Assembly (NCBI GenBank): GCA_030523505.1
Contig: JAUNIK010000051.1
Span: 1-11,028 of the forward strand
Direction of reading: 5' to 3'
Source of the DNA: Prevotellaceae bacterium
GTDB taxonomy: Bacteria > Bacteroidota > Bacteroidia > Bacteroidales > Bacteroidaceae
Length of the DNA: 11,028 nucleotides
Part shown: one piece after another, positions 1 through 11,028 of the stretch
Layout of the letters: each line of letters opens with the position of its first letter
How positions within the stretch are numbered: position 1 is the first letter of the stretch
Translations under genes and position numbers: made by a program
Notes under the pieces: generated by a model
Told to the model about the DNA's origin: nothing
Databases searched by the model: none
What the model saw: the letters and a program-made list of their open reading frames with translations, nothing else

Positions 1-1784
1 CGCAGTGGCTGGTATTGTTCGCGAAGGAATGCATCGGTCATACAGCCGTAAGTGTCAATCACGAACTTTACACGAGCGGCATTGCCCTTGCTAATGTGTT
101 CGCATAGAAGTCCCCAGATGATAGTTTTATCCTTGCTCTTTAGTATTTGCGTGAAGAGGGATTCTTCGTCCTTTTCGTCTTTTTGGCTTTTCTTAAAGTT
201 ACTACGAATGAGGAGGTAGATAGCAAGAATAATCGCCAGAGCCATGGCAACGTAACTGCCAAAATACATAGTGTTAGTGAGAAGGAAACAGAATACGAAT
301 GCCACACCTGCAGTTATGAACCAACCACCGATGACGCTTATCACACCCGTTATGCGAAAGACGGCTGACTCGCGTCCCCACGCACGGTCGGCAAGTGAAG
401 TGCCCATGGCAACCATAAAGGTAACGTAGGTGGTGGAGAGCGGAAGCTTCATGCTTGTGCCGATGGCAACGAGAAGTCCAGCAAGCACAAGGTTTACGGC
501 TGCGCGAATGAGGTCGAAGGCTGCACCCTGCGGCAACTTCATCTCCTCGCTGTTGAAGCGTGTGTCAATCCAATGCAGAAGGCTGTCGGGTATGAACTTG
601 GTAATGAAATTTGATGTGACGTGGCTGTTACGAACGAGAGCTCTTGCCACAGGTGACGAACCAAACATCTCGTCACCATCATCCTGACGCGATAGGTCAA
701 CGGAGGTTTTTACAACATTTTGTGCCTTTTTTGAGAAAATGAGCGAGAGTACCATCACCACGCCAGCACCAATAAGGAAGATCGTTGGCGTGTGGGCACA
801 GTCCATCAACGATTGCATAAAGAATGTATCGGGATTGCCGGCACCATTAGCCACATAATCCTGATAAGCTTCAAGACCAGTGAGAGGTACACCCACGAAG
901 TTCACAAGGTCATTGCCGGCAAACGCCATGGCAAGCGCAAAGGTTCCGAGGAGTACAACGAACTTCAATACAGGCAGTTTGATGGCACTTGCAATGGTCA
1001 TAATGATACTGAAGACAGCTACGCCACCACATAATATATATAAGGTGTTTGAATTGATCATCTCCTTTAGTTCTGGGGACATGAATGAACTGTTCTTCAA
1101 TCCATTTATAAGTAAGAACCAGACGATGCTCGTTACTGCAATGCCCGAAAAAATACCAATCTTCAACGAACTGCTTGTCAATCCTCCCATGTTGCCATTG
1201 TAAGCAGTGGTCTTGCCGTTTACTCTGTAAGTAAATGTGAACACCATACGGCTCACCCACATCACCACCATACCCACGATAAAGGCAATGGCAACACTCA
1301 GGAAGATACCCATGATAACAGAGATGGCTTTCTCCGTGTTGAGCAGATCACCAAGAGCGAGTAATGTGCCGTCAGAAGAAGTCGCTCCATGTGCTATCTT
1401 CAAGATTGCTACAGCAAAAGCACCACCCAGTAACTCGAAGACCATGCTCACGGTTGTTGATGTGGGCATACCGAGGGTATTGAAGATATCGAGCAGAATG
1501 ACGTCTGTTACCATCACAGCGAGAAACACACACATTACCTCATAGAACGAGAAGTACTCCGGTGTCATGATGCCATGGCGTGCCACGTCCATCATACCGT
1601 TACTCATAGCCGCTCCAGCAAAGACGCCCACAGCTGCTATTGCTACTATCGTGCGGAACTTTGCCACCTTGGCACCAATCGCCGAATTGAGGAAGTTCAC
1701 CGCATCATTGCTGACACCGACCACAAGGTCAAATACTGCCAGCATACAAAGGAATATTACTATTCCGAGAAATATTGTATTCAT
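1..1784 (-). CDS. pit: PiT-family inorganic phosphate transporter (3' end cut by window edge)
   Basis: Inner-membrane permease that imports orthophosphate, in this family by symport with H+ or Na+. The frame is open from ATG 1784 to the window edge, giving 594 residues and no stop. Both halves of the PiT fold are visible. The signature Asn-Asp motifs are VSNDAVNFLNSAIG (about 24-37) and FAGNDLVNFVGVPLTG (about 288-303). The paired Pro-Ser/Thr-Thr-Thr motifs are GMPTSTTVS (105-113) and KLPLSTTYV (446-454). Many hydrophobic segments are interrupted by a polar linker (about 352-415). After the last membrane segment (about 507-527) comes a charged, cytosol-like tail that continues past the edge, so the protein is longer than E. 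coli PitA (about 500 residues). ATG 1784 is supported by a GGAGG seven bases upstream, unusual in this phylum. It is last in the ppk-ppx-microprotein-pit run, which fits feeding phosphate to PPK. Family assignment is firm; the symbol and ion coupling are inferred. Confidence 0.93.
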   Translation of the reverse strand, partial: MNTIFLGIVIFLCMLAVFDLVVGVSNDAVNFLNSAIGAKVAKFRTIVAIAAVGVFAGAAMSNGMMDVARHGIMTPEYFSFYEVMCVFLAVMVTDVILLDIFNTLGMPTSTTVSMVFELLGGAFAVAILKIAHGATSSDGTLLALGDLLNTEKAISVIMGIFLSVAIAFIVGMVVMWVSRMVFTFTYRVNGKTTAYNGNMGGLTSSSLKIGIFSGIAVTSIVWFLLINGLKNSSFMSPELKEMINSNTLYILCGGVAVFSIIMTIASAIKLPVLKFVVLLGTFALAMAFAGNDLVNFVGVPLTGLEAYQDYVANGAGNPDTFFMQSLMDCAHTPTIFLIGAGVVMVLSLIFSKKAQNVVKTSVDLSRQDDGDEMFGSSPVARALVRNSHVTSNFITKFIPDSLLHWIDTRFNSEEMKLPQGAAFDLIRAAVNLVLAGLLVAIGTSMKLPLSTTYVTFMVAMGTSLADRAWGRESAVFRITGVISVIGGWFITAGVAFVFCFLLTNTMYFGSYVAMALAIILAIYLLIRSNFKKSQKDEKDEESLFTQILKSKDKTIIWGLLCEHISKGNAARVKFVIDTYGCMTDAFLREQYQPL

Positions 1785-1852: not shown

Positions 1853-1954
1853 TTATAATGTAAAATACGCTAAAAGTCCTACAACGATGATTACTACTGC
1901 CAGACGGAAATAATCGTACCAGCGCTGGATTTTCATAGCTTTTTCTATGTTCAT
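1853..1954 (-). CDS. 33-residue single-span membrane microprotein
   Basis: A short frame translates to a 33-residue peptide: MNIEKAMKIQRWYDYF, then RLAVVIIVVGLLAYFTL. The first 17 residues are charged and amphipathic (K5, K8, R11, R17 against E4, D14). Residues 18-33 form one uninterrupted hydrophobic segment running to the C-terminus. The composition suggests an inner-membrane peptide with its N-terminus in the cytoplasm. The ATG lies 2 nt after the ppx stop, typical of translational coupling, and pit begins 68 nt downstream. An internal Met7 could also start it, but the first ATG fits the coupling better. I do not recognise a family. By position it may be a small partner of the PiT transporter or a membrane anchor for polyphosphate enzymes; both are guesses. 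Against it: the frame is short and could be chance, although the compact charged-then-hydrophobic arrangement argues for a real gene. Confidence 0.65.
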   Translation of the reverse strand: MNIEKAMKIQRWYDYFRLAVVIIVVGLLAYFTL

Positions 1955-1956
1955 GA

Positions 1957-2880
1957 TTATCTGTTATTTAATGTTTTTTCCACTAATTCGTTTATGATAC
2001 CGTCTGTCAAACCCATGGTTGGAACAATAATGGTGTCGGTATTAATGATTCCTGCTACCATGAGGAACAGTTGAGCCGCAGGTACAATAACGTCTGCCCG
2101 GTCTTCCCTCAGATCGTATTGTTTCATTCGCTCTTCTAAACTAAGCACGGAGAGGTGATTGTAAAGCTTATTCAAAGTGCTGACCATCAGACATTCCTTT
2201 TTCTTCTCACGCTTAGGAGTTAGTCTATGGAGCTTGTTAATGTTTCCTCCCGAACCGATGATGTTAATATTCTCATAGCCTTCCGTCAAGTTTCTGACTA
2301 CTTCACCCATTTCGTTCCACTGTTCTGTCGAAACGGATTCGATCAGCAGTCTTATTGTTCCGATATTGAATGAGCGAACTGCTACAAGTTTTCCATCGGA
2401 GATGAGAGACAATTCCGTAGAACCACCACCCACATCCATATACAGATAGTTCTTGCCATCTTCTTGCACATGGTTGTCGCGAATGATCTTTGCCTCCTCG
2501 TCACCTGTCACAATCTCGATGTCGAGTTTTGCCTTGCTGTATATCTGTTTCAAAATCTTCTTGCCGTTCTTTGCATCGCGGAAAGCTGCAGTAGCACAGG
2601 CGCGGTAGTCTTCCACATTATAGATGACAAGCAACTGGCGGAAGATTTTCATGGTACGCATCAGTTGCTTTTCCCTTTCTTCGCTGATTCGTCCGATACT
2701 GAACACGTCCATTCCAAGGCGTAGGGGTATGCGTAGAAACTGTAGTTTCTTCAGACGAACAGAAGGTTTTCCGTCATCATCCGTGCTAAGTTTCACATTC
2801 TTTATAAGGATTCTTGCTGCATTGGAACCTATATCGATGGCAGCAAGGTTAAAATCGTTTGGATTTATTTCTCGTTTCAT
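1957..2880 (-). CDS. ppx: Exopolyphosphatase, Ppx/GppA family, short form
   Basis: A 307-residue cytosolic enzyme of the Ppx/GppA branch of the ASKHA (actin-like ATPase) fold. Members remove terminal phosphate from polyphosphate or convert pppGpp to ppGpp. Visible motifs: phosphate-binding loop AAIDIGSNAARILI (13-26), acidic catalytic stretch TGDEEAKII (125-133), second loop MDVGGGSTELSLI (148-160), adenosine-type motif IIGSGGNINKL (207-217), and the closing motifs RADVIVPAA (261-269) and GLTDGIINEL (290-299). It contains only the two actin-like domains. E. coli PPX (about 510 residues) has an extra C-terminal HD-like part that is absent, as in the short PPX proteins of mycobacteria. It starts 17 nt after the ppk stop, so co-transcription is likely and exopolyphosphatase fits better than guanosine pentaphosphatase. 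Sequence alone does not exclude pppGpp activity. No Shine-Dalgarno precedes it. Confidence 0.93.
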   Translation of the reverse strand: MKREINPNDFNLAAIDIGSNAARILIKNVKLSTDDDGKPSVRLKKLQFLRIPLRLGMDVFSIGRISEEREKQLMRTMKIFRQLLVIYNVEDYRACATAAFRDAKNGKKILKQIYSKAKLDIEIVTGDEEAKIIRDNHVQEDGKNYLYMDVGGGSTELSLISDGKLVAVRSFNIGTIRLLIESVSTEQWNEMGEVVRNLTEGYENINIIGSGGNINKLHRLTPKREKKKECLMVSTLNKLYNHLSVLSLEERMKQYDLREDRADVIVPAAQLFLMVAGIINTDTIIVPTMGLTDGIINELVEKTLNNR

Positions 2881-2897: not shown

Positions 2898-4979
2898 TTA
2901 ATCGTTTGGTTGTATAGAGGACTTGACATCAACGTTATTGTCATCGTTATAATGCAAATACAACGCCTCCTGACTCCTGAACTCCACGTCATTGTCCTGA
3001 TAGCCAGCCACCACTCTGCCTTGCTTAGTGTCGTCCAAGCCGTAATCCACAATAGTAAGCAGTTCCTGTTGAATGTATTTGTCATAAACAGGTGTTACGA
3101 CTTCCACTCTGCAATCCAGGTTGCGAGGCATCCAGTCGGCAGAGCCGATGAAGTAAAGAGGTTCGCCTCCGTTGGCAAAGATAAAGATACGCGAATGTTC
3201 CAAGTAGCGGTCAATGATGCCCACAATCTTCAGCCGTCCGTCGAAGTCCTCATTATCCACCAACGAACAGTTGCCCCTCACCAGGGCCTCCACCTTGATG
3301 CCAGCCTCCACGGCTTCGTAGATTTTGCTCACCATCAGTGGTTCGGTGATGTGGTTCACCTTCATCTTTATCCATGCAGGCATGCCTTGCAGGTGGTTCT
3401 TTATCTCATTGTCAATAAGACGCAGGAACTTGTCTTTCATCTCATTAGGCGACACAAGCAACTGCTTGAACTTGACGGGTGTGTATGGCTTCTCAATAAA
3501 CTTGAACACACGCTCCACGTCCTGCACGATGTTCTTGTTGGCAGTCATCAACATCACGTCAGTATAGCGTGACGCATTGCCCTCGTGAAAATTGCCCGTA
3601 GAGACAACTGCAATGTTCTGACCACTCTTGAAACCGATGTGTGTAATCTTAGAGTGAACCTTCAATCCCTCCACACCGAAGATAACATTGATGCCAGCCT
3701 CCTGCATTTTCTTCGCCCAACTGATGTTTGGCGCTTCGTCAAAACGCGCCAGCAGTTCGATAATAACCGTAACCTTCTTGCCATTGAGAGCGGCACAGAT
3801 GAGCGCACGTATTACTTTTGAATCTTTAGCCAGTCGGTAGAGCGTTGTCTTGATACTCTTCACCTTCGGGTCGATAGCTGCTTCATTCAGCAGACGGATG
3901 TAACCATCGAATGAATGATAGGGCACGTGCAACATGCGATCTTTCTCCCTGATTACCTTGAAGATGCTTTCTGCACCGTGCAGCTCTTTATTTGCAATGG
4001 GTGTCCACTTTGGATAGGTCATGTTCTTCTTTCCACAATCGGGAAACGACATAAAGTCGCGGTGGTTCTGATAACGACCGCCAGCCAATGCTGTATCCAA
4101 CCTTTCACCTTCAGCCAGCAATGATTTGATTCTGCGCAATGCACCATTAGGCATCTCGGAATCATAAACTATGCGCACGGGGCTTCCTGCCTTGCGGGAT
4201 TTGACTCCCTTCTGAATCTTCTGCATGAAGCCTTCACGAAGATCATTGTCAATCTCCATCTCTGCATCGCGTGTAAACTTGAATGTCCATGCTTCGAAAT
4301 GCTCGCGCTGAAGTCCCGGAAACACTAGTGGAAGACAAGCCCTGACCACATCATCCAGATACATTACGTTTGCACAAGTGTTACCGTCATCGTTATCGTT
4401 GACTACATACCATCTTCCCACCGCATCCACAGGCAATGGAAAGAGAGCATAGTGAGCCTTGCATCCTTCGCTCTTCATGCGGACAATCATATAGATGTTG
4501 TCATCGGCTTCCTTGTCAAAGTCATGGAGATTTTCAAACCATACAGGTGAAATTCTTCCGATGAGTTTTGCCTTATAGAACAGATACACCCTTTGGCGTT
4601 GTTCGTCGTTCAGTTCATCGTCACGCAGTATGCGTATATTGTTGGCAGCAAGCGATGTGCGTACGGCATCCACTGTCTGAGCATACTCCTTGGCATACTT
4701 TGCATTCAGGCGGTTTATCTCCTTCAACTGCTGCACAGCTTTCTCTGCTTCTGCCTTGATTTCCTTCGTTGGATGATCGTCTGCAAGCGCTGCCACTCTG
4801 CCCAGATTTGCCATCCTTACCCTGAAGAATTCATCCAGATTGTTGGAGTAGATACCGAGGAATGCCATGCGCTCCAGCACGGGTACATTCTCGCGCTGCG
4901 CCTCCTCCAAAATCCTGTGATTGAAGTACATCCATGACACATCGCGATCTACATAATTTCGTTTTGTCAGTTTTACCAT
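2898..4979 (-). CDS. ppk: Polyphosphate kinase 1
   Basis: PPK1 reversibly builds inorganic polyphosphate from the gamma-phosphate of ATP; it is cytosolic or membrane-associated. The 693-residue length is normal for the family. The N-terminal domain begins with DRDVSWMYFNHRILEEA (11-27) and NNLDEFFRVRMA (46-57). The two phospholipase-D-like C-terminal domains carry LYRLAKDSKV (380-389), ELLARFDEAPNISWA (408-422), VHSKITHIG (441-449) and YLEHSRIFIFANG (592-604). His442 aligns by motif with the phosphorylated catalytic His435 of E. coli PPK, and His595 with His592. TGNFHEGNA (461-469) and SADWMPRNLDCRVEVVTPV (613-631) complete the active site. No key residue is missing. It is the first gene after a clear promoter and is followed at 17 nt by ppx, so synthesis and breakdown of polyphosphate share a transcript. 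The ATG is preceded by an AT-rich leader without a Shine-Dalgarno, as usual here. Confidence 0.97.
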   Translation of the reverse strand: MVKLTKRNYVDRDVSWMYFNHRILEEAQRENVPVLERMAFLGIYSNNLDEFFRVRMANLGRVAALADDHPTKEIKAEAEKAVQQLKEINRLNAKYAKEYAQTVDAVRTSLAANNIRILRDDELNDEQRQRVYLFYKAKLIGRISPVWFENLHDFDKEADDNIYMIVRMKSEGCKAHYALFPLPVDAVGRWYVVNDNDDGNTCANVMYLDDVVRACLPLVFPGLQREHFEAWTFKFTRDAEMEIDNDLREGFMQKIQKGVKSRKAGSPVRIVYDSEMPNGALRRIKSLLAEGERLDTALAGGRYQNHRDFMSFPDCGKKNMTYPKWTPIANKELHGAESIFKVIREKDRMLHVPYHSFDGYIRLLNEAAIDPKVKSIKTTLYRLAKDSKVIRALICAALNGKKVTVIIELLARFDEAPNISWAKKMQEAGINVIFGVEGLKVHSKITHIGFKSGQNIAVVSTGNFHEGNASRYTDVMLMTANKNIVQDVERVFKFIEKPYTPVKFKQLLVSPNEMKDKFLRLIDNEIKNHLQGMPAWIKMKVNHITEPLMVSKIYEAVEAGIKVEALVRGNCSLVDNEDFDGRLKIVGIIDRYLEHSRIFIFANGGEPLYFIGSADWMPRNLDCRVEVVTPVYDKYIQQELLTIVDYGLDDTKQGRVVAGYQDNDVEFRSQEALYLHYNDDNNVDVKSSIQPND

Positions 4980-5022: not shown

Positions 5023-5058
5023 AATTGCGCTGCAAAGGTATTCAGAGCATATTACAAA
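5023..5058 (-). promoter_or_regulatory. Promoter of ppk (Bacteroidetes type)
   Basis: The minus strand reads TACCTTTG at 5040-5033, a full match to the Bacteroidetes -7 consensus TAnnTTTG. It continues into the partial palindrome TTTGCAGCGCAATT (5036-5023), where transcription should start, leaving a leader of about 47 nt before ppk. A TTTG lies upstream at 5058-5055, but only 14 bp from the -7 box rather than the usual 19-21. The -33 element is therefore weak, which would fit a promoter that needs an activator. Confidence 0.7.
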
Positions 5059-5106
5059 CCGTTTGCAGAATTATGAAAATAATGTGTCGTAACGAGATTG
5101 TAATAT
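5049..5106 (-). repeat. 9-bp inverted repeat in the HD gene-ppk gap
   Basis: ATATTACAA and its exact complement TTGTAATAT occur at 5106-5098 and 5057-5049 on the minus strand, 40 bp apart, with a small ATTAT/ATAAT hairpin between them. The upstream arm is part of the candidate operator; the downstream arm overlaps the -33 region of the ppk promoter. It may be a third regulator half-site in reverse orientation, or a weak 3'-end structure for the HD-domain gene that stops at 5108. Confidence 0.4.
5087..5105 (-). promoter_or_regulatory. Candidate operator (Pho-box-like), copy A, upstream of ppk
   Basis: The minus strand reads TATTACAATCTCGTTACGA. It matches copy B upstream of the lipoprotein gene at 16 of 19 positions. 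Its near edge is exactly 46 bp from the -7 element, as in copy B. Two 7-bp half-sites, ATTACAA and GTTACGA, are separated by 4 bp, giving the 11-bp period of tandem PhoB-type sites. The bound protein is unknown; a PhoB-type phosphate regulator is the natural guess. Confidence 0.6.
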
Positions 5107-5107
5107 C

Positions 5108-5947
5108 CTACAGATACCGCTTTGCATCCTCTCTTTCCACACAGGCGTATAGCTCCACCAAATGCTTAGCAGGACTTGACTGAATCTTGGGCATGAGGAC
5201 ACCCTCTATCTGAAAGAGACCGACCTCTGCTTTCATGTGAACTTCAATCTTTATCGGACGGTCGTTTCCCTTTGTGATGCGCACCTTCTCAATGGAATTG
5301 GCAGAGTATTTATGTATGTCACCTTCCATGGGCTTGGTGGGAATTTCAAGGGCAATGCGAGCTCGCCCTTTGGTCATATCGCAACCGTCGGCAATGAGTA
5401 TCAATCCTGCCTCGATGGAGTGAATGGGGTGCGTACCCATGTGTCCGAGGATGCCTTCCATCGCCATTGACCGGATAATGGTTCTGCGCTTGACGTCATC
5501 GGGCAGAACTTTTAGGAGAATGTCTGTCAGTATTTGATAGGCAATGATGCCGGAGTAGAGTTCGTGATCTTTCCTGCCTATGGTCATGCCGGCATCATGC
5601 AGGAAGGCGGCAAGCATCACGGCTACAACACTATCAACGAAACTGCCCGAATGCTCTTTCTGCAAACTAGTCTCAACCCCGGCCTCGTGCAGTATGTCGA
5701 GCATCTTCATCGCATTTTTGCATACGGTACGCATGTGAACAGGACCATGATCATTCAATCCCAATCTCGTGATTGATACCGTGTTTGCATAATCTTGAAT
5801 AGTCTTTATCTCTTCATCTTCGAGCAATTCCGTTATCACCCTTTGTGGCAGATCATCAGCACTACCCAAGCGTTCCACTATGCCATCCACAAGTTTTTGC
5901 AACTTACCATCAAGCGTAACTTCTTTCTGTGATTTATTGTTTTGCAT
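5108..5947 (-). CDS. HD-domain phosphohydrolase
   Basis: A 279-residue soluble protein without signal peptide or membrane segment. It carries an HD metal-dependent phosphohydrolase core: first histidine region NDHGPVHMR (65-73; H67 and H71), the HD pair in AAFLHDAGMTIGRKDHE (113-129; H117-D118, with H128), further histidines in GHMGTHPIHSIEAG (168-181), and an acidic segment LIADGCDM (184-191; D187, D190) that can supply the last metal ligand. The C-terminal 90 residues look like an alpha/beta domain with no motif I recognise. HD enzymes cleave phosphomono- or diester bonds, often in nucleotides; the substrate here cannot be told from sequence. It lies between the lipoprotein gene and ppk, each side separated by a structured gap, so it may be its own unit or a read-through gene. 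Its setting suggests phosphate or nucleotide-signal metabolism. The ATG at 5947 lacks a Shine-Dalgarno. Confidence 0.85.
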   Translation of the reverse strand: MQNNKSQKEVTLDGKLQKLVDGIVERLGSADDLPQRVITELLEDEEIKTIQDYANTVSITRLGLNDHGPVHMRTVCKNAMKMLDILHEAGVETSLQKEHSGSFVDSVVAVMLAAFLHDAGMTIGRKDHELYSGIIAYQILTDILLKVLPDDVKRRTIIRSMAMEGILGHMGTHPIHSIEAGLILIADGCDMTKGRARIALEIPTKPMEGDIHKYSANSIEKVRITKGNDRPIKIEVHMKAEVGLFQIEGVLMPKIQSSPAKHLVELYACVEREDAKRYL

Positions 5948-5965
5948 AAGCGTATAAAATGTCTA

Positions 5966-6008
5966 AAAGTGTATGGCCAATTCCACGATAGGAAAGACCA
6001 TACACTTT
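5966..6008 (-). terminator. Strong hairpin, likely terminator of the lipoprotein gene
   Basis: In transcript sense a 13-bp stem forms between AAAGTGTATGGTC (6008-5996) and GGCCATACACTTT (5978-5966), with one G-U pair. A second TTCC/GGAA stem closes a TATCGT loop. It starts 33 nt after the lipoprotein stop. The tract after it (TAGACATTTTAT) is only moderately T-rich, so it could instead be an attenuator or an mRNA-stabilising 3' structure. It ends about 18 nt before the HD gene ATG. Confidence 0.75.
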
Positions 6009-6041
6009 ATGTGATTAACTAATACCTACGTCCGAAAAATC

Positions 6042-7592
6042 TTAGTACTCTGCATTCTGAGGGTCAAACTCTGTCCAGCCACGAAGCCAATTGTCATCGT
6101 TTCCGAAGGCACCGATGTAGGGAACCTTGTCGAACCACGATGAGAGCAAACCGTCGGTGAAGGAAGCAGCTCCGAGCAACGGAGAACCGCTCTGAGGCAG
6201 ATACTGAGCACCAGCATAGATGCCCGAAGTAAGCATCAGGTCAGCAATGTTTTGGAATACCTTGTTGCCCGTCTGTGCCTTGAAGAATGTTGAGCTGTAT
6301 GACTCTTTTGTTACGTCAATTACGCTCTTGCCAGCCGCATCATAGAGGTCGTCAGTATAGCGCTTATTGGCATCGCTACCGGTAATACCCATGCCGGCAA
6401 AGAAGATGTTCTGCAACTTCAATCCACCTTCCTTTGCAAACTTCTGGGTTTCACCCTTCTCGCCATCAATTATCAAGCCGATAGGATAGCCTACTGCCAC
6501 AGAGTTGAAGCAAGCAAGGTGGCTGCTGCGACGAATCTGCATGGCACTCTGGAACTTGCCAAGTGCAGAACCATTCTGTGGGAATACCGAACCACCATTG
6601 ATGTATTCAGGCGTGTTCTCGAAACCATTGCGTCCCATAGGACCAATGAACGTGACGTTCGAGAATGTGGCAGATGTGAAAGGTTCGGTCAGCGAACCGT
6701 CGGCATCGTTGTCGCTCTCGAAACCGTTTGACTGCGAAGTATCTGCAATGCGAGGATCGCGGATGGAGAGAGCGAACTGCACTTTGCCGCTGTAGCCATT
6801 GTCGGTGTCAAACTCATCATCCCAACCGTTGAAGGCTACGAGGTAACGGCAGTTCACATTTCCGCCAAACCACTCATAGGAGTCGTCGTTGGTGTAGCTC
6901 ACCTGAATATGGTCAACCTGCGTGCCTGCACCTACCGAACCGAAGGTTATACCGTTAATTTCTTTGTCTTTCTGGAAGGGATAGCCAGCAAACTCCACAC
7001 GAACGTAAGAGAGAATACCGCTGTTGTCATTCACATTGTTACCACCGTGCTTCGTACGAGGACCACCCTCAATCTGCTGTCCTAACTCACCCTTGTTATT
7101 AGTGCCGCGACCGCAGATAACCAATCCACCCCAGTCACCAGGCTTTCGGTTGCCCTTTGCCTGAGCGGAAGTAAAGACGATAGGAGCCGACTCCGTTCCC
7201 TTGGCAAAGAGTTTTCCGCCTGGTTCCACGATGAGCGAGGCAGCCGATTCTTTCTCTCCCTTTATTATCGTACCCGGTTCGATGGTCAGTTCTGCACCGT
7301 TAGCCACATAGATCCATCCTTTCATCAGGTAAGTACCCTTCTTCAATGTCTGCTTGCCTGTAAAGATAAATTCTTTGTCGCCATTGCCGATGACGGTTCC
7401 GTTGGCATCATCCTTACCATCGGCTGAGAACGTGAGATGGTCGCACGTCTTGATGCTTCCGTCCGTGCCCCAGACATAAGCCGTTTGTCCCTCATTACCA
7501 TTTGTCACATCATCATCATTGCTGCACGACACCATGGTCATTGTCAGCGCTGTAGCCATCAAAGCCACCGAAAGAAAACTTTTTTTCTTCAT
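6042..7592 (-). CDS. Surface-type lipoprotein with beta-helix-like repeats (GDWGGL family)
   Basis: A 516-residue exported lipoprotein. A basic N-terminus and hydrophobic stretch lead to a lipobox-like MVSC with the lipidated Cys at 23. The following SNDDD is an acidic run of the kind that sends Bacteroidetes lipoproteins to the cell surface. The body is rich in short beta-strand and Gly/Asn turn patterns, such as ANGAELTIEPGTIIKG (97-112), then PGDWGGLVICGRG (151-163), VDHIQVSYTNDDSYEWFGG (226-244), GWDDEFDTDNGYSG (256-269) and a conserved-looking C-terminus ending PYIGAFGNDDNWLRGW (491-506). This resembles a right-handed beta-helix family often found beside TonB-dependent receptors; I know no proven function. 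It lies 140 nt after the receptor gene, with its own promoter and the operator shared with ppk. It may act as the ligand-binding partner of the receptor, in place of SusD. The Asp/Asn-rich loops suggest calcium binding (inference). Confidence 0.85.
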   Translation of the reverse strand: MKKKSFLSVALMATALTMTMVSCSNDDDVTNGNEGQTAYVWGTDGSIKTCDHLTFSADGKDDANGTVIGNGDKEFIFTGKQTLKKGTYLMKGWIYVANGAELTIEPGTIIKGEKESAASLIVEPGGKLFAKGTESAPIVFTSAQAKGNRKPGDWGGLVICGRGTNNKGELGQQIEGGPRTKHGGNNVNDNSGILSYVRVEFAGYPFQKDKEINGITFGSVGAGTQVDHIQVSYTNDDSYEWFGGNVNCRYLVAFNGWDDEFDTDNGYSGKVQFALSIRDPRIADTSQSNGFESDNDADGSLTEPFTSATFSNVTFIGPMGRNGFENTPEYINGGSVFPQNGSALGKFQSAMQIRRSSHLACFNSVAVGYPIGLIIDGEKGETQKFAKEGGLKLQNIFFAGMGITGSDANKRYTDDLYDAAGKSVIDVTKESYSSTFFKAQTGNKVFQNIADLMLTSGIYAGAQYLPQSGSPLLGAASFTDGLLSSWFDKVPYIGAFGNDDNWLRGWTEFDPQNAEY

Positions 7593-7637
7593 TGTTTTTT
7601 ATTGTTTGTTATTACGTCATGCAATCCAGCCTTTCTG

Positions 7638-7655
7638 AATTGCGCTGCAAAATTA
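7638..7655 (-). promoter_or_regulatory. Promoter of the beta-helix lipoprotein gene
   Basis: The minus strand reads TAATTTTG at 7655-7648, a full match to the Bacteroidetes -7 consensus. It runs into TTTGCAGCGCAATT (7651-7638), identical over 14 bases to the same position of the ppk promoter. No good TTTG -33 element is present at the usual distance. The predicted leader is about 50 nt and ends in an A-rich tract before ATG 7592. Confidence 0.7.
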
Positions 7656-7701
7656 CAGAGTTGTTGTTTCTACCTTGTTACAATCCCGCTACGATATTGT
7701 T

Positions 7702-7720
7702 TCGTAACTGGATTGTCATA
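7702..7720 (-). promoter_or_regulatory. Candidate operator (Pho-box-like), copy B, upstream of the lipoprotein gene
   Basis: The minus strand reads TATGACAATCCAGTTACGA, with half-sites ATGACAA and GTTACGA 4 bp apart. On the plus strand the first half-site is TTGTCAT, one base from the E. coli Pho-box half-site CTGTCAT. The site starts 12 nt after the receptor gene's stop codon. Its near edge is exactly 46 bp from the -7 element, matching copy A. A reversed half-site, TTGTAAC, lies at 7683-7677. Confidence 0.6.
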
Positions 7721-7732
7721 AATTACTTTGTA

Positions 7733-10423
7733 TTAGAATTTATAACCAACGGAGAGTTGGATGGTTCGCCCTGGGCGGTAGGAGCGAGTTATCTGTTCAA
7801 TCTCGCCGTGAGGGGTATTCTCGCATTGCTTGAACTGAACCTTTTGCGCCAGAAGGTCGCGGACGGAGAAGCGGAGGGCTAAGTGGCCAATCTCCTTACT
7901 TACGTTGAGATCGAGCTGGTGGCGTGGCATCTCGTAACTGTCGGGCACACGAACCTCGGTGGCTCCTGTTCCAACGCTGCGACCAACACCTATCAGTCGT
8001 TTGCCTATTACGTTGTAGAGGAGAGACGCTGTCCAACCTTTCTGCCATTCGCGATTTGGATTGCCTTGGTTGCTGTTATAGAAAAGTCCAATGTTGACCA
8101 GATAGGGCGATTGTCCTTGCATTGGTCGCGATTCCTCCTTACTACCTTCAGGGAAGGTGACGTAACTCTTTATCAACGAGGCATTGAGTGAAACTGAGAA
8201 CTGAGGCAGGTGCAGAAAGTCGAACTGCTTGCGGATGTCGAGTTCAATGCCGTAGTTGTCCGCTCCCTCAGCATTGAGGTAGGAATAAACGAGGTCGGTG
8301 CCACCAGCCACGGTGTACGTCCACTCGATAGGATTGCGAAAATGTTTGTAGAAGAGCGAGAGACTCACCACCTCGCCAGCATGGGGATACCACTCCCAAC
8401 CGAGGTCGAGATTGTCGATGTAGGCAGGCTTCAGGTTGTGATTGCCCTGCACGTTCGAGGCGAGGTCGAAGTCATAATAGACACTAGACGAGAGTTCGCG
8501 AAACTCTGGTCGGTTGGTTGTGCGACCGTATGCCGCACGCAACTGATGTTTGTCTGTCAGGTGGTAGGCAAGGTTGAGTGAGGCGAAGAGGTCGTTGTAA
8601 TCGTAGAACGTGGAGAGGGGCGAGGGCTCATGACGGCGTGTGTTGGAGATAAGTTCTGTGCGAACATGCTCAAAACGAACACCACCATACACGTCGAATC
8701 GTCGGATGGGAAGTTTCGCGCTCACATAGCTGCTACCCTGTGTGCTGCGAGCCGAATAGTTGTTGCTCCAGTCGATGAGTTCGTGCTGGCTGATGCCTAT
8801 CGTGTTGGTTGGTGAGCCTGTCGAACCATCATCCATGGTCAGGATAATAGGCAGATTATTTGCGTCGTCCCAACCATCAAGCGACTGTGGCAACTGACCA
8901 CCATCGTACTGCAACGTCCACTGTTGTGTTTCATACACACGGCGACGATGCTCTACGTATGCACCTGCAAAGAGAGAGGGCGTGAACGTGCCAAATGTAA
9001 AGTCATGTTTCCAATTGGCAGAAGCCGAAAGGATGTGCTCATCGAGTCGGGAAGTCTCGCGGTTGAAGTCGTTGAGATTGTCTATCACGAAGCGTTTTTC
9101 CTCCTCCATCATGCTGTAACGTTGGCGATTGGGCAGGTGACGATTGGCGTATGCGTAGCCAAGACTCCAATCAAGTTTGTCAGCATCCGATAGCTTGTGC
9201 TTGCCATCCAATTGCACGTTATAGGTAAGCCTTCGCTGACGGTAGTATTCTGCTTGACGTACATGGTCGCTCTGCGCATCATAGCCGTCACGATCCGTAT
9301 AGCGGTCTTTGCCAAGACGATTCAGTATCTGCTTGAATTCGTAGCGATTACGCCCTGAGGCAGAGAGATAGGTGAGATTGAGCAATGCCCCGAGACGGCG
9401 GTTGAGGTTATACTGATGGTCGGTCATCTGGCGCAGATAGTTCGAGCGGTCGTGCGTCACGTCGTATGCACCGAAGAGGTTATTCTCCATGTCGCGCAAC
9501 GTGCGGTATTGCTGCGTGAAGTTGGCGCTTGCCACCAGAGCCCACGTCTGCCCTTCATCAGTGCGCCATCGCTGTGCCGTGCTTGCCGATGCGCTAACAT
9601 CCCCGATGGGCGAGAATGAGTGTGTCTGCCAACTGCTCTCTTTTGCAGAAAGAAACGTACGGAAGTGCGATGACTCGTTCCACGAAGTGCCAAGTGAGAA
9701 ATCCGTCTTGTTCTCGCTCGGCACGTCCTTCGTGTTGACCAGAATGAAACCACCGGAAAAGTCCGCAGGGTATTCGGGAGCGGATGACTTTACGACCATC
9801 ATATTGTCGAGTTGCGATGAGGGAATGATGTCGAACGAGAAGGCACGCTGGTCGGCTTCGCTCGAAGGAACAGCAGCTCCATTCAGCCATACATTATTAT
9901 ATCGTTGCGACAGACCTCGTACCATGACAAACTTCTCGTCGATGATACTCACGCCTGGAATGCGGCGTATCACCTCGCCGGCGTCCTTGTCCTGTGTGCG
10001 CTTGATGTGCTGCTCGCTCACGCCAGTCATCGTGACGTGCGCCTCCTGCTGCTCACGAGTGGTGGCGGCTTCAGTGTTGTGGCGTACGGTTCCTGTAACA
10101 GTCACTTCACCGAGTGTTGCATTGTCAGGTTCAAGGATGAAGTCGAGCACAAGATCTTCTTTTGTTACCTTAACACCTTCTTTTATAACAGGTTTATATC
10201 CGATGAAGCGCACCGTCAGCGTGTATGTGTCGTTCTTTAAATTCAGCGAATAGTTACCATCAATGTCGGCCGTAGTTCCTTGCCCATTCTGAGTCACGAT
10301 GGTAGCACCTGTCAGCGGTTCGCCAGTGCCTTGTTCTGTGATTCGCCCCTTCACGATGCCTGCAAAACTAAGGATAGGCATTAGGAGGAAAAGAACAGTT
10401 GTAATTATACCTTTGAGTTTCAT
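7733..10423 (-). CDS. TonB-dependent outer-membrane receptor (SusC-like, no SusD neighbour)
   Basis: An 896-residue receptor that uses TonB energy to import a ligand across the outer membrane. I place the start at ATG 10423, where a normal signal peptide begins (MKLKGIITTVLFLLMPILSF, residues 1-20). The frame stays open upstream to ATG 10537, but that 38-residue extension is Met/Thr-rich, lacks signal features and overlaps the acidic microprotein. After the signal comes a carboxypeptidase-regulatory-like domain (about 23-98: VKGRITEQGTGEPLTGATI, GYKPVIKEGV). A TonB-box-like GEVTVTG (105-111) follows, then a plug domain with VIRRIPGVSIID (151-162) and MVRGLSQRYNNVWLNG (167-182), and a long beta-barrel ending in an aromatic strand, LSVGYKF. 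The gap to the microprotein is 4 nt and the porin lies just beyond. The ligand is unknown; the neighbours point to phosphate or a phosphorylated compound. No SusD gene follows; the next gene is the beta-helix lipoprotein. Confidence 0.92.
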   Translation of the reverse strand: MKLKGIITTVLFLLMPILSFAGIVKGRITEQGTGEPLTGATIVTQNGQGTTADIDGNYSLNLKNDTYTLTVRFIGYKPVIKEGVKVTKEDLVLDFILEPDNATLGEVTVTGTVRHNTEAATTREQQEAHVTMTGVSEQHIKRTQDKDAGEVIRRIPGVSIIDEKFVMVRGLSQRYNNVWLNGAAVPSSEADQRAFSFDIIPSSQLDNMMVVKSSAPEYPADFSGGFILVNTKDVPSENKTDFSLGTSWNESSHFRTFLSAKESSWQTHSFSPIGDVSASASTAQRWRTDEGQTWALVASANFTQQYRTLRDMENNLFGAYDVTHDRSNYLRQMTDHQYNLNRRLGALLNLTYLSASGRNRYEFKQILNRLGKDRYTDRDGYDAQSDHVRQAEYYRQRRLTYNVQLDGKHKLSDADKLDWSLGYAYANRHLPNRQRYSMMEEEKRFVIDNLNDFNRETSRLDEHILSASANWKHDFTFGTFTPSLFAGAYVEHRRRVYETQQWTLQYDGGQLPQSLDGWDDANNLPIILTMDDGSTGSPTNTIGISQHELIDWSNNYSARSTQGSSYVSAKLPIRRFDVYGGVRFEHVRTELISNTRRHEPSPLSTFYDYNDLFASLNLAYHLTDKHQLRAAYGRTTNRPEFRELSSSVYYDFDLASNVQGNHNLKPAYIDNLDLGWEWYPHAGEVVSLSLFYKHFRNPIEWTYTVAGGTDLVYSYLNAEGADNYGIELDIRKQFDFLHLPQFSVSLNASLIKSYVTFPEGSKEESRPMQGQSPYLVNIGLFYNSNQGNPNREWQKGWTASLLYNVIGKRLIGVGRSVGTGATEVRVPDSYEMPRHQLDLNVSKEIGHLALRFSVRDLLAQKVQFKQCENTPHGEIEQITRSYRPGRTIQLSVGYKF

Positions 10424-10427
10424 TGTC

Positions 10428-10568
10428 TTAATCGTCGTCATCATCATTGTCATCCCATTCGTCTTCATCATCCTCTTCAAAACCTGTGGAAAGAGACTTG
10501 GGAAATTCCAGTTCGTCAACATCGTCAAATTTTGCAATTAAATCTTGATTATATTTTGCCATAGTCAT
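10428..10568 (-). CDS. Highly acidic microprotein (46 aa; 44 aa from the second ATG)
   Basis: A short frame lies between the porin stop (5 nt upstream) and the receptor ATG (4 nt downstream), the spacing of translationally coupled genes. It may start at ATG 10568 or in-frame ATG 10562, which differ by two residues. Counted from the second ATG, the 44 residues include 14 Asp and 6 Glu against 3 Lys. Residues 29-44 are 14 acidic out of 16, interrupted by Trp36 and Asn39. The first half has a short amphipathic pattern (MAKYNQDLIAKFDDVDELEF). There is no signal peptide or membrane segment, so it should stay in the cytosol. The acidic tail mixes GAA, GAG, GAT and GAC codons, which favours selection on the protein over simple repeat slippage. 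I recognise no family. Possible roles are metal binding or a polyanion mimic acting on a phosphate or polyphosphate factor; both are speculation. Confidence 0.65.
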   Translation of the reverse strand: MTMAKYNQDLIAKFDDVDELEFPKSLSTGFEEDDEDEWDDNDDDDD

Positions 10569-10573
10569 TTGCG

Positions 10574-11028
10574 TTAGAATCTAATCATCAGTTCGACAAC
10601 AAGTTTATCCTGTTCGCTCTCCTTTGGAGTACAACCATGTGGGTACCAGTACTTCTCGTAGTTGAGACGAATGTCGGTTGGGAAGTATTTGTTGGCAACA
10701 TGGAAGGTCAGACCTGCCGTGAGTCTATGACGTTCTGCGTCGGATTGTTGTAAACGAGTAGTACCCTCCACGAAGCCCTTCTTGCCATCGCTGTGGTTGT
10801 CCATGTAATCGTAGCGGAGAAGATAGCTGATGCCGCCCAAGAAGCCTTTCTTCATTGGCATCTTGTAGATTGTCATGACATCAACGGCATTGCAGTCGTC
10901 AAAAGTATCCTTTGCATAAAACTTACGGAGGTATTCTGCTTCAACATGAAGACCATTCCACTCATAGTAAGCTCCGAAGTCAAACGACGTGTACGAAGCC
11001 TCACGACTCGCAATAAGCTGGTGCTGAA
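10574..11028 (-). CDS. Phosphate-selective porin O/P-like protein, C-terminal part (5' end cut by window edge)
   Basis: The last 150 residues of an outer-membrane beta-barrel; the frame is open to the right edge and ends at TAA 10574. Alternating hydrophobic/polar strands with aromatic girdle residues are visible: FDFGAYYEWNGLHVEAEYL, the strand with GISYLLRYDYMD, an extracellular-type loop rich in Gly, Lys and Asp, AERHRLTAGLTFHVA, then DIRLNYEKYWY. The C-terminal strand LVVELMIRF ends in Phe, the usual signal for barrel assembly. The closing pattern (GLTFH, then RLNYEKYW) is what I associate with the OprO/OprP family (phosphate or pyrophosphate-selective porins). Specificity cannot be judged, since the lysine ladder of the channel would lie in the missing N-terminal part. 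An internal Met at 10876 is not the start, because the barrel continues upstream of it. It leads the operon with the acidic microprotein and the TonB receptor. Confidence 0.8.
   Translation of the reverse strand, partial: QHQLIASREASYTSFDFGAYYEWNGLHVEAEYLRKFYAKDTFDDCNAVDVMTIYKMPMKKGFLGGISYLLRYDYMDNHSDGKKGFVEGTTRLQQSDAERHRLTAGLTFHVANKYFPTDIRLNYEKYWYPHGCTPKESEQDKLVVELMIRF

Follow-up and report, generated by a model that had tools for sequence, protein, structure and literature searches.

The stretch of DNA considered here, 11,028 nucleotides (nt) from a Prevotellaceae bacterium (contig JAUNIK010000051.1 of assembly GCA_030523505.1; hereafter "the window"), raises the question of whether two similar 19-mers, one upstream of the polyphosphate kinase gene ppk1 and the other upstream of a lipoprotein gene, place both genes under the control of one regulator. 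Comparison with the sequences of related genomes makes us rather confident that the two promoters, A in front of ppk-ppx-PiT and B in front of the lipoprotein gene, belong to the Pho regulon and are driven by the organism's own PhoB, each of them combining a proximal array of half-sites with a distal box of reversed direction. Both -7 elements were called by means of TAnnTTTG, which we take to be the -7 consensus. The promoter elements are as follows (distances in base pairs, bp):

5087..5105, minus strand: distal box of promoter A (copy A), TTACAA-N5-TTACGA, 46 bp from the -7 element, direction opposite to canonical
5052..5079, minus strand: proximal Pho-box half-sites of promoter A, TTGTAA at 5052-5057 (11 bp from the -7 element), CTGCAA at 5063-5068 (22 bp) and TTTTCA at 5074-5079 (33 bp)
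5033..5040, minus strand: -7 element of promoter A, TACCTTTG
7702..7720, minus strand: distal box of promoter B (copy B), TGACAA-N5-TTACGA, 46 bp from the -7 element
7667..7694, minus strand: proximal Pho-box half-sites of promoter B, TAGAAA at 7667-7672 (11 bp, weak), TTGTAA at 7678-7683 (22 bp) and TCGTAG at 7689-7694 (33 bp)
7648..7655, minus strand: -7 element of promoter B, TAATTTTG

The 19-mers of A and B are identical at 16 of 19 positions, and TAnnTTTG is located exactly 46 bp beyond the end of each of them. Each 19-mer harbours two half-sites with a period of 11 bp (TTACAA/TTACGA in copy A, TGACAA/TTACGA in copy B), TTGTCAT being present in one half-site of copy B only. The coordinates, the degree of identity, the distance to TAnnTTTG and the 11-bp period given in the original prediction are thereby all confirmed. 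The intervening 46-bp spacers, described there as largely different, are not quite unrelated: they share 19 of 46 positions, compared to a shuffle mean of 12.0 (p 0.014). In addition to the two sites described, there is a third, inverted copy at 7676-7694 (plus strand), which had been overlooked; it adjoins copy B and falls within the proximal region of promoter B (7667-7694). A search of the window with TATKACAATCYMGTTACGA, allowing up to 3 mismatches, retrieves 3 matches, compared to a mean of 0.01 in 200 shuffles, none of which contained 3. The genome-wide scan for the strict 19-mer did not yield an excess, since TKACAATCNNGTTACGA at up to 2 mismatches gives 10 matches in the organism's own genome (3.32 megabases (Mb); assembly 80% complete, 662 contigs) and 10 for the reversed control; at 0-1 mismatch the three window sites are the only ones in the whole genome. 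That looser scans match no more often than their control is what a chance likeness of two AT-rich stretches would predict, yet the window shuffles, the recurrence at the same distance in relatives and the register described below had already disfavoured this explanation, which may practically be dismissed.

Copy B and the inverted third copy together form a dyad (7675-7721) whose arms of 20 nt are 80% complementary and separated by a gap of 7 nt. Instead of being a DNA site, this dyad might function in the receptor mRNA, as a hairpin that terminates or stabilises the transcript, and its predicted fold is indeed stable (-18.8 kcal/mol, z -4.24, none of 200 shuffles as stable), with the relatives still folding, if more weakly (-9.3 and -10.9 compared to -17.8 kcal/mol for the same stretch of B). 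However, there is no T tract, no terminator was found and no Rfam match was obtained, and promoter A possesses the box while its hairpin z amounts to only -1.78. We therefore regard the hairpin as a highly improbable explanation.

In Pho regulons the core box is situated just upstream of the promoter core, where it replaces the -35/-33 element; the Pho box of E. coli points in coding-strand direction and lies close to the promoter core, as do the proximal half-sites observed here. At 11, 22 and 33 bp from the -7 element these half-sites are located where a core box is expected in both A and B, whereas the 19-mers alone, being reversed and 46 bp out, are not. The proximal half-sites are thus likely to be the core Pho boxes of A and B. 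Judged from the sequence, the 19-mers are additional boxes of reversed direction, farther upstream than a core box. Their designation as the operator consequently holds insofar as they are tandem sites of PhoB type with an 11-bp period; compared to phosphate promoters they are reversed and distal, and the proximal core boxes had not been listed.

This assignment is supported by the register between half-sites and -7 element in related genomes, which, it should be noted, are not independent of one another. Of 62 phosphate promoters, 33 have a coding-strand TTGTAA whose end lies 11, 22, 33 or 44 bp ahead of TAnnTTTG, as opposed to 14 of 234 others (p 4e-16), while with the same labels, based on homology only, none of seven off-phase distance classes is significantly enriched. 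If a gene starting like LRR_5 proteins is included, the last TAnnTTTG follows at 11, 22, 33 and 44 bp in 11, 12, 25 and 14 cases, respectively, among 76 phosphate promoters, and the sites 0-65 bp out lie at exact multiples of 11 in 68 of 92 cases compared to 11 of 39 in 220 other promoters. This gene was counted as a phosphate gene only in the 76-promoter distance analysis and related analyses, a decision made after the motif had been seen; it was left out of the phosphate class in the 62-promoter register test, the thinned test and the array counts given below. After thinning by similarity the register persists (22/48 vs 10/210, 16/37 vs 7/178 and 8/20 vs 6/131). At ppk-near receptor genes of three Bacteroides loci TTGTAA likewise occurs exactly 22 bp before TAnnTTTG (L024 13186, L025 7525, L028 13222).

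The tandem arrangement recurs as well. In the best 80 of 101 loci of ppk relatives, which together with the window make up 81 sequences (1.38 Mb), two distances stand out for TTACAA pairs, 11 bp (12 pairs) and 22 bp (9 pairs), every other distance between 6 and 35 being represented by 0-4 pairs; TTACG, TGACA, AACATT, ACATTA, TTCAAA, TTGACA and TAACAA exhibit no 11-bp peak in these sequences. Among 597 upstream regions of at least 60 bp, arrays are present for 23/120 phosphate genes as opposed to 21/477 others (p 7e-7), the former including porin (10/17), PiT (5/9), phoB (3/7), receptor (1/10) and phoR (0/1) genes. The 11-bp spacing is present in 44 regions, each of eight control spacings in 3-10. 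Thirteen of the 21 non-phosphate genes start like the LRR_5 gene, five are divergent from phosphate genes and three are unrelated. The LRR_5 gene heads the ppk operon in Prevotella-type loci (Pfam-tested in L057 alone, elsewhere recognised by similar protein starts). Gene labels were assigned by BLAST with the window proteins and proteins from L021, L147, L153 and L154; as the motif itself had led to the latter three loci, there is some circularity in the porin, pst and Na/Pi queries, although Pfam agrees with the labels derived from them. Two ppk matches contain internal stop codons and represent broken genes or assembly errors (L214 in G228, L221 in G210).

A blind search of 151 genomes of the family for three tandem half-sites with at most 1 mismatch led to 24 matches at 21 distinct places. 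Twelve of these adjoin PiT, Na/Pi, pstS/pstC or phoR-porin genes, two of them being located between head-to-head pstS and pstC (L147, L155); the remaining ones comprise three receptors of weaker similarity, one pstS-like gene and five places with none of these. The reversed control returned 15 matches at 13 places, none of which is next to such a gene. As raw counts are weak evidence, it is the gene context which separates the motif from its control.

The genome itself encodes PhoB, the putative regulator, and PhoR, both of Bacteroidota type: PhoB (contig C273) scores 337.5 bits with NF053854 (cut-off 270) and PhoR 523.6 bits with NF053855 (cut-off 500). The phoB promoter has TTGTAA at 34 bp, one base off register. 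The strongest array is found between Na/Pi and PiT genes. On C447 the Na/Pi promoter bears half-sites at 0, 11, 22, 33 and 44 bp, and the promoter of this second PiT gene at 11 to 44 bp, each with at most 2 mismatches. TTGTAA-N10-40-TAnnTTTG occurs 33 times in this genome, the control 17 times. The gap amounts to 11, 22 or 33 in five cases (A, B, the C447 Na/Pi gene, a gene on C562 and an unrelated gene on C292) and to 16 in six, the latter presumably reflecting ordinary -33/-7 spacing. The C562 site (G000:C562:6449-6495) presents TTTTAA-N5-TTGTAA 22 bp before TAATTTTG, upstream of a gene reading like the N-terminus of a TonB receptor, which is a possible member of the regulon.

The claim that A and B carry PhoB-type tandem sites and are activator-dependent thus finds support in the array, register and layout comparisons among relatives. 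Given in-phase half-sites at both promoters, their recurrence at phosphate promoters of relatives and the presence of PhoB and PhoR genes, the grouping of polyphosphate synthesis and the surface lipoprotein in one regulon, as originally proposed, is well supported by comparative evidence. As the same kind of box precedes phosphate-uptake genes in relatives, A and B are probably switched on together under phosphate shortage.

Published data, of which we draw on the passages available, mostly agree with this interpretation as far as B. fragilis and F. johnsoniae are concerned. The E. coli Pho box consists of two 11-nt direct repeats with the core CTGTCAT, its consensus letters differing between species (PMC4415409). 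The window has in common with it tandem half-sites of 11-nt period in front of phosphate genes and a regulator of the PhoB family, and the same boxes are found before known phosphate genes of other genomes; it differs in the half-site core TTGTAA, the promoter core TAnnTTTG and the extra reversed box at 46 bp. The PhoRB regulon of B. fragilis (PMC3547664) comprises PhoB-dependent ppk, ppx, permease, porin and pst genes, and PhoB binds a pstC promoter fragment. Upon phosphate limitation ppk BF2645 and ppx BF2646 rise 24.4- and 42.1-fold in wild type, not without phoB, and the permease BF3715 stands at -52.2 in the mutant; these genes may be counterparts of those of the window. Its pstS and pstC are arranged head to head as in L147 and L155, whereas pstC was not found in the window genome (no TIGR02138 match, assembly 80% complete). 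In F. johnsoniae (PMC8115612) a porin, the receptor Fjoh_0545 (PF07715, PF13715, PF14905) and the lipoprotein Fjoh_0546 are likewise grouped beside phoBR, the latter two being induced by phosphate depletion; its OprP is not induced, and Fjoh_0546 is likened to the window lipoprotein by arrangement. PhoP of Riemerella anatipestifer (PMC9603813), a Bacteroidota regulator of the same class with a motif from DNA affinity purification sequencing (DAP-seq), has TTTAACA as its most conserved bases, not TTGTAA, and is reported as a pathogenicity regulator. The available text of PMC3547664 uses none of the words "motif", "consensus" and "binding site", that of PMC8115612 neither "pho box" nor "motif", and no Bacteroidota Pho-box sequence was found in the literature searched (titles, abstracts and text passages, subscription papers being mostly outside).

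Several observations weigh against the assignment of A and B to the Pho regulon. With the exception of one TTGTAA each, their proximal half-sites are imperfect. Among relatives, arrays are rare upstream of ppk (4/53) and missing upstream of ppx (0/18) and of the lipoprotein gene (0/5). The number of blind-search matches is as such barely above the reversed control (24 vs 15), and two half-sites with at most 1 mismatch occur 19 times in the own genome compared to 20 times for the control, the two exact matches both being part of the C447 array. In motif-selected loci the register holds at 6 promoters and fails at 4 distinct ones with TAnnTTTG (L149, L154, L156 and phoR of L160); the other promoters of this set, both pst loci included, are devoid of TAnnTTTG within 260 bp. 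Finally, the available text on B. fragilis (PMC3547664) describes a second ppk, BF3714, whose increase of about fivefold is independent of phoB; of the porins, BF2289 falls under limitation while BF0375 rises, and limitation lowers the Na-phosphate transporter BF4351 101-fold in wild type, an effect absent from the phoB mutant.

It remains to consider the distal reversed box. The layout "array, 44-48 bp, TAnnTTTG" occurs 18 times (in 16 genomes) among 299 genomes of the genus, the reversed pattern once. Twelve of the matches are linked to phosphate genes and six are not; the former are A and B of the window, five lipoprotein promoters (four identical), one PiT promoter (G302, 269 bp from the start codon), two phoB/PiT intergenic regions and two Na/Pi genes. 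That the layout would be conserved before orthologous genes thus proves correct in part: it recurs before lipoprotein and PiT genes, yet in 6 of 7 loci of relatives with the lipoprotein gene on the plus strand the box is missing, L184 having one (L185, L188, L191, L193 and L195, with the match on the other strand, were left out of the 7). In L186, L187, L189, L190 and L194 the lipoprotein gene starts 17-62 bp after the receptor stop codon, and the 133 bp upstream of it in L192 contain no array.

The similarity of the spacers (32 of 46 positions between A and the G302 PiT promoter, 26 between B and the latter, besides the 19 between A and B) bears on the origin of these promoters. A and the G302 PiT promoter, given their 32 shared positions, are probably related by descent, and since a PiT gene follows this kind of promoter in G482 and G302, the placement of ppk-ppx ahead of PiT may have taken place within the lineage of the window. 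The same similarity would be expected if A and B arose from one duplicated promoter, the distal box being a relic of a former divergent promoter without present role, and many boxes of this direction in relatives do belong to a divergent neighbour. Among A, B, G239, G296 and G302, however, all five sequences share 15 of the 19 box positions, but only 12 of 46 in the spacer. A reverse promoter served by the distal boxes was considered and rejected, as in A, B, G239 and G302 the 80 bp beyond the box contain no TAnnTTTG on the strand in question, which likewise argues against a relic. We consider this origin possible but on the doubtful side; core Pho control would hold in this case, too. An operator of another regulator which by chance lies beside the Pho boxes would account for the distal 19-mer being better conserved than the proximal half-sites; it appears improbable since half-sites and 11-bp period are those of phosphate boxes and 12 of the 18 layout matches are phosphate-linked.

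If A and B are Pho-regulon promoters, phosphate shortage would induce both of them: phosphorylated PhoB would line up head to tail on the in-phase TTGTAA-like half-sites and, in place of a good -33 element, contact and recruit RNA polymerase. An additional PhoB dimer would probably sit on the distal 19-mer, facing nearly the same side of the DNA, and raise occupancy. Tentatively, and with less than even confidence, we propose a compound Pho operator in which two opposed PhoB arrays share nearly one helix face, the proximal one set in 11-bp steps from the -7 element and the distal one fixed at 46 bp, and in which position would determine the sign of the response (activation at 11 bp or more, repression at 0 bp). 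At the Na/Pi promoters G000:C447:924-984 and G482 L286 a PhoB-type half-site touches the -7 element (0 bp). A half-site so placed would rather block the polymerase, suggesting repression, which would fit the PhoB-dependent fall of BF4351 in the available B. fragilis data (PMC3547664). Should the compound operator exist, polyphosphate storage and a surface receptor-lipoprotein system would answer one phosphate signal. Independently of this proposal, the boxes described here supply a sequence and a spacing rule for the phosphate-starvation box of gut Bacteroidota, for which the literature searched provided expression and binding data but no box. By this rule members of the regulon, among them uncharacterised outer-membrane genes, can be recognised in genome sequences, and it becomes directly testable what role is played by the register of activator sites relative to the unusual -7 element.

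The main genes of the window are all encoded on the minus strand:

10574..11026, minus strand: C-terminus of a porin, 69% identity over 156 columns to a porin-labelled protein of L263, no Pfam match of its own
10428-10562, minus strand: 44-amino-acid acidic open reading frame between porin and receptor genes, with an aspartate run at its end
7733..10423, minus strand: TonB-dependent receptor (PF07715, PF13715, PF14905)
6042..7592, minus strand: lipoprotein gene following promoter B, large family (PF28492 precomputed for relatives)
5108-5947, minus strand: 279-amino-acid protein, no Pfam or NCBIfam match
2898..4979, minus strand: ppk1, polyphosphate kinase, first gene after promoter A (NF003925 above cut-off)
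1957..2880, minus strand: ppx, Ppx/GppA phosphatase (family match)
1853-1954, minus strand: 33-amino-acid open reading frame, probably a single-helix membrane microprotein, MNIEKAMKIQRWYDYFRLAVVIIVVGLLAYFTL
3..1784, minus strand: PiT-type phosphate permease (PF01384), running off the contig

With porin, receptor, lipoprotein, ppk1, ppx and PiT genes around them, both promoters reside within a block of phosphate genes. Relatives of the 279-amino-acid protein adjoin lipoprotein or PiT genes in G482 and G296 and stand alone in G499. Small open reading frames ending in an aspartate run, as the one between porin and receptor genes does, are also found directly upstream of ppk in L011 (406-543) and L021 (9689-9973). 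The 33-amino-acid microprotein has a relative in L091 (1076-1177, plus strand; MNETKAKKIQRYYDYLRLAIIIMFVGLLAFFTL), a sequence pattern revealing none in the other scanned loci; it is encoded just before both PiT genes of this genome.

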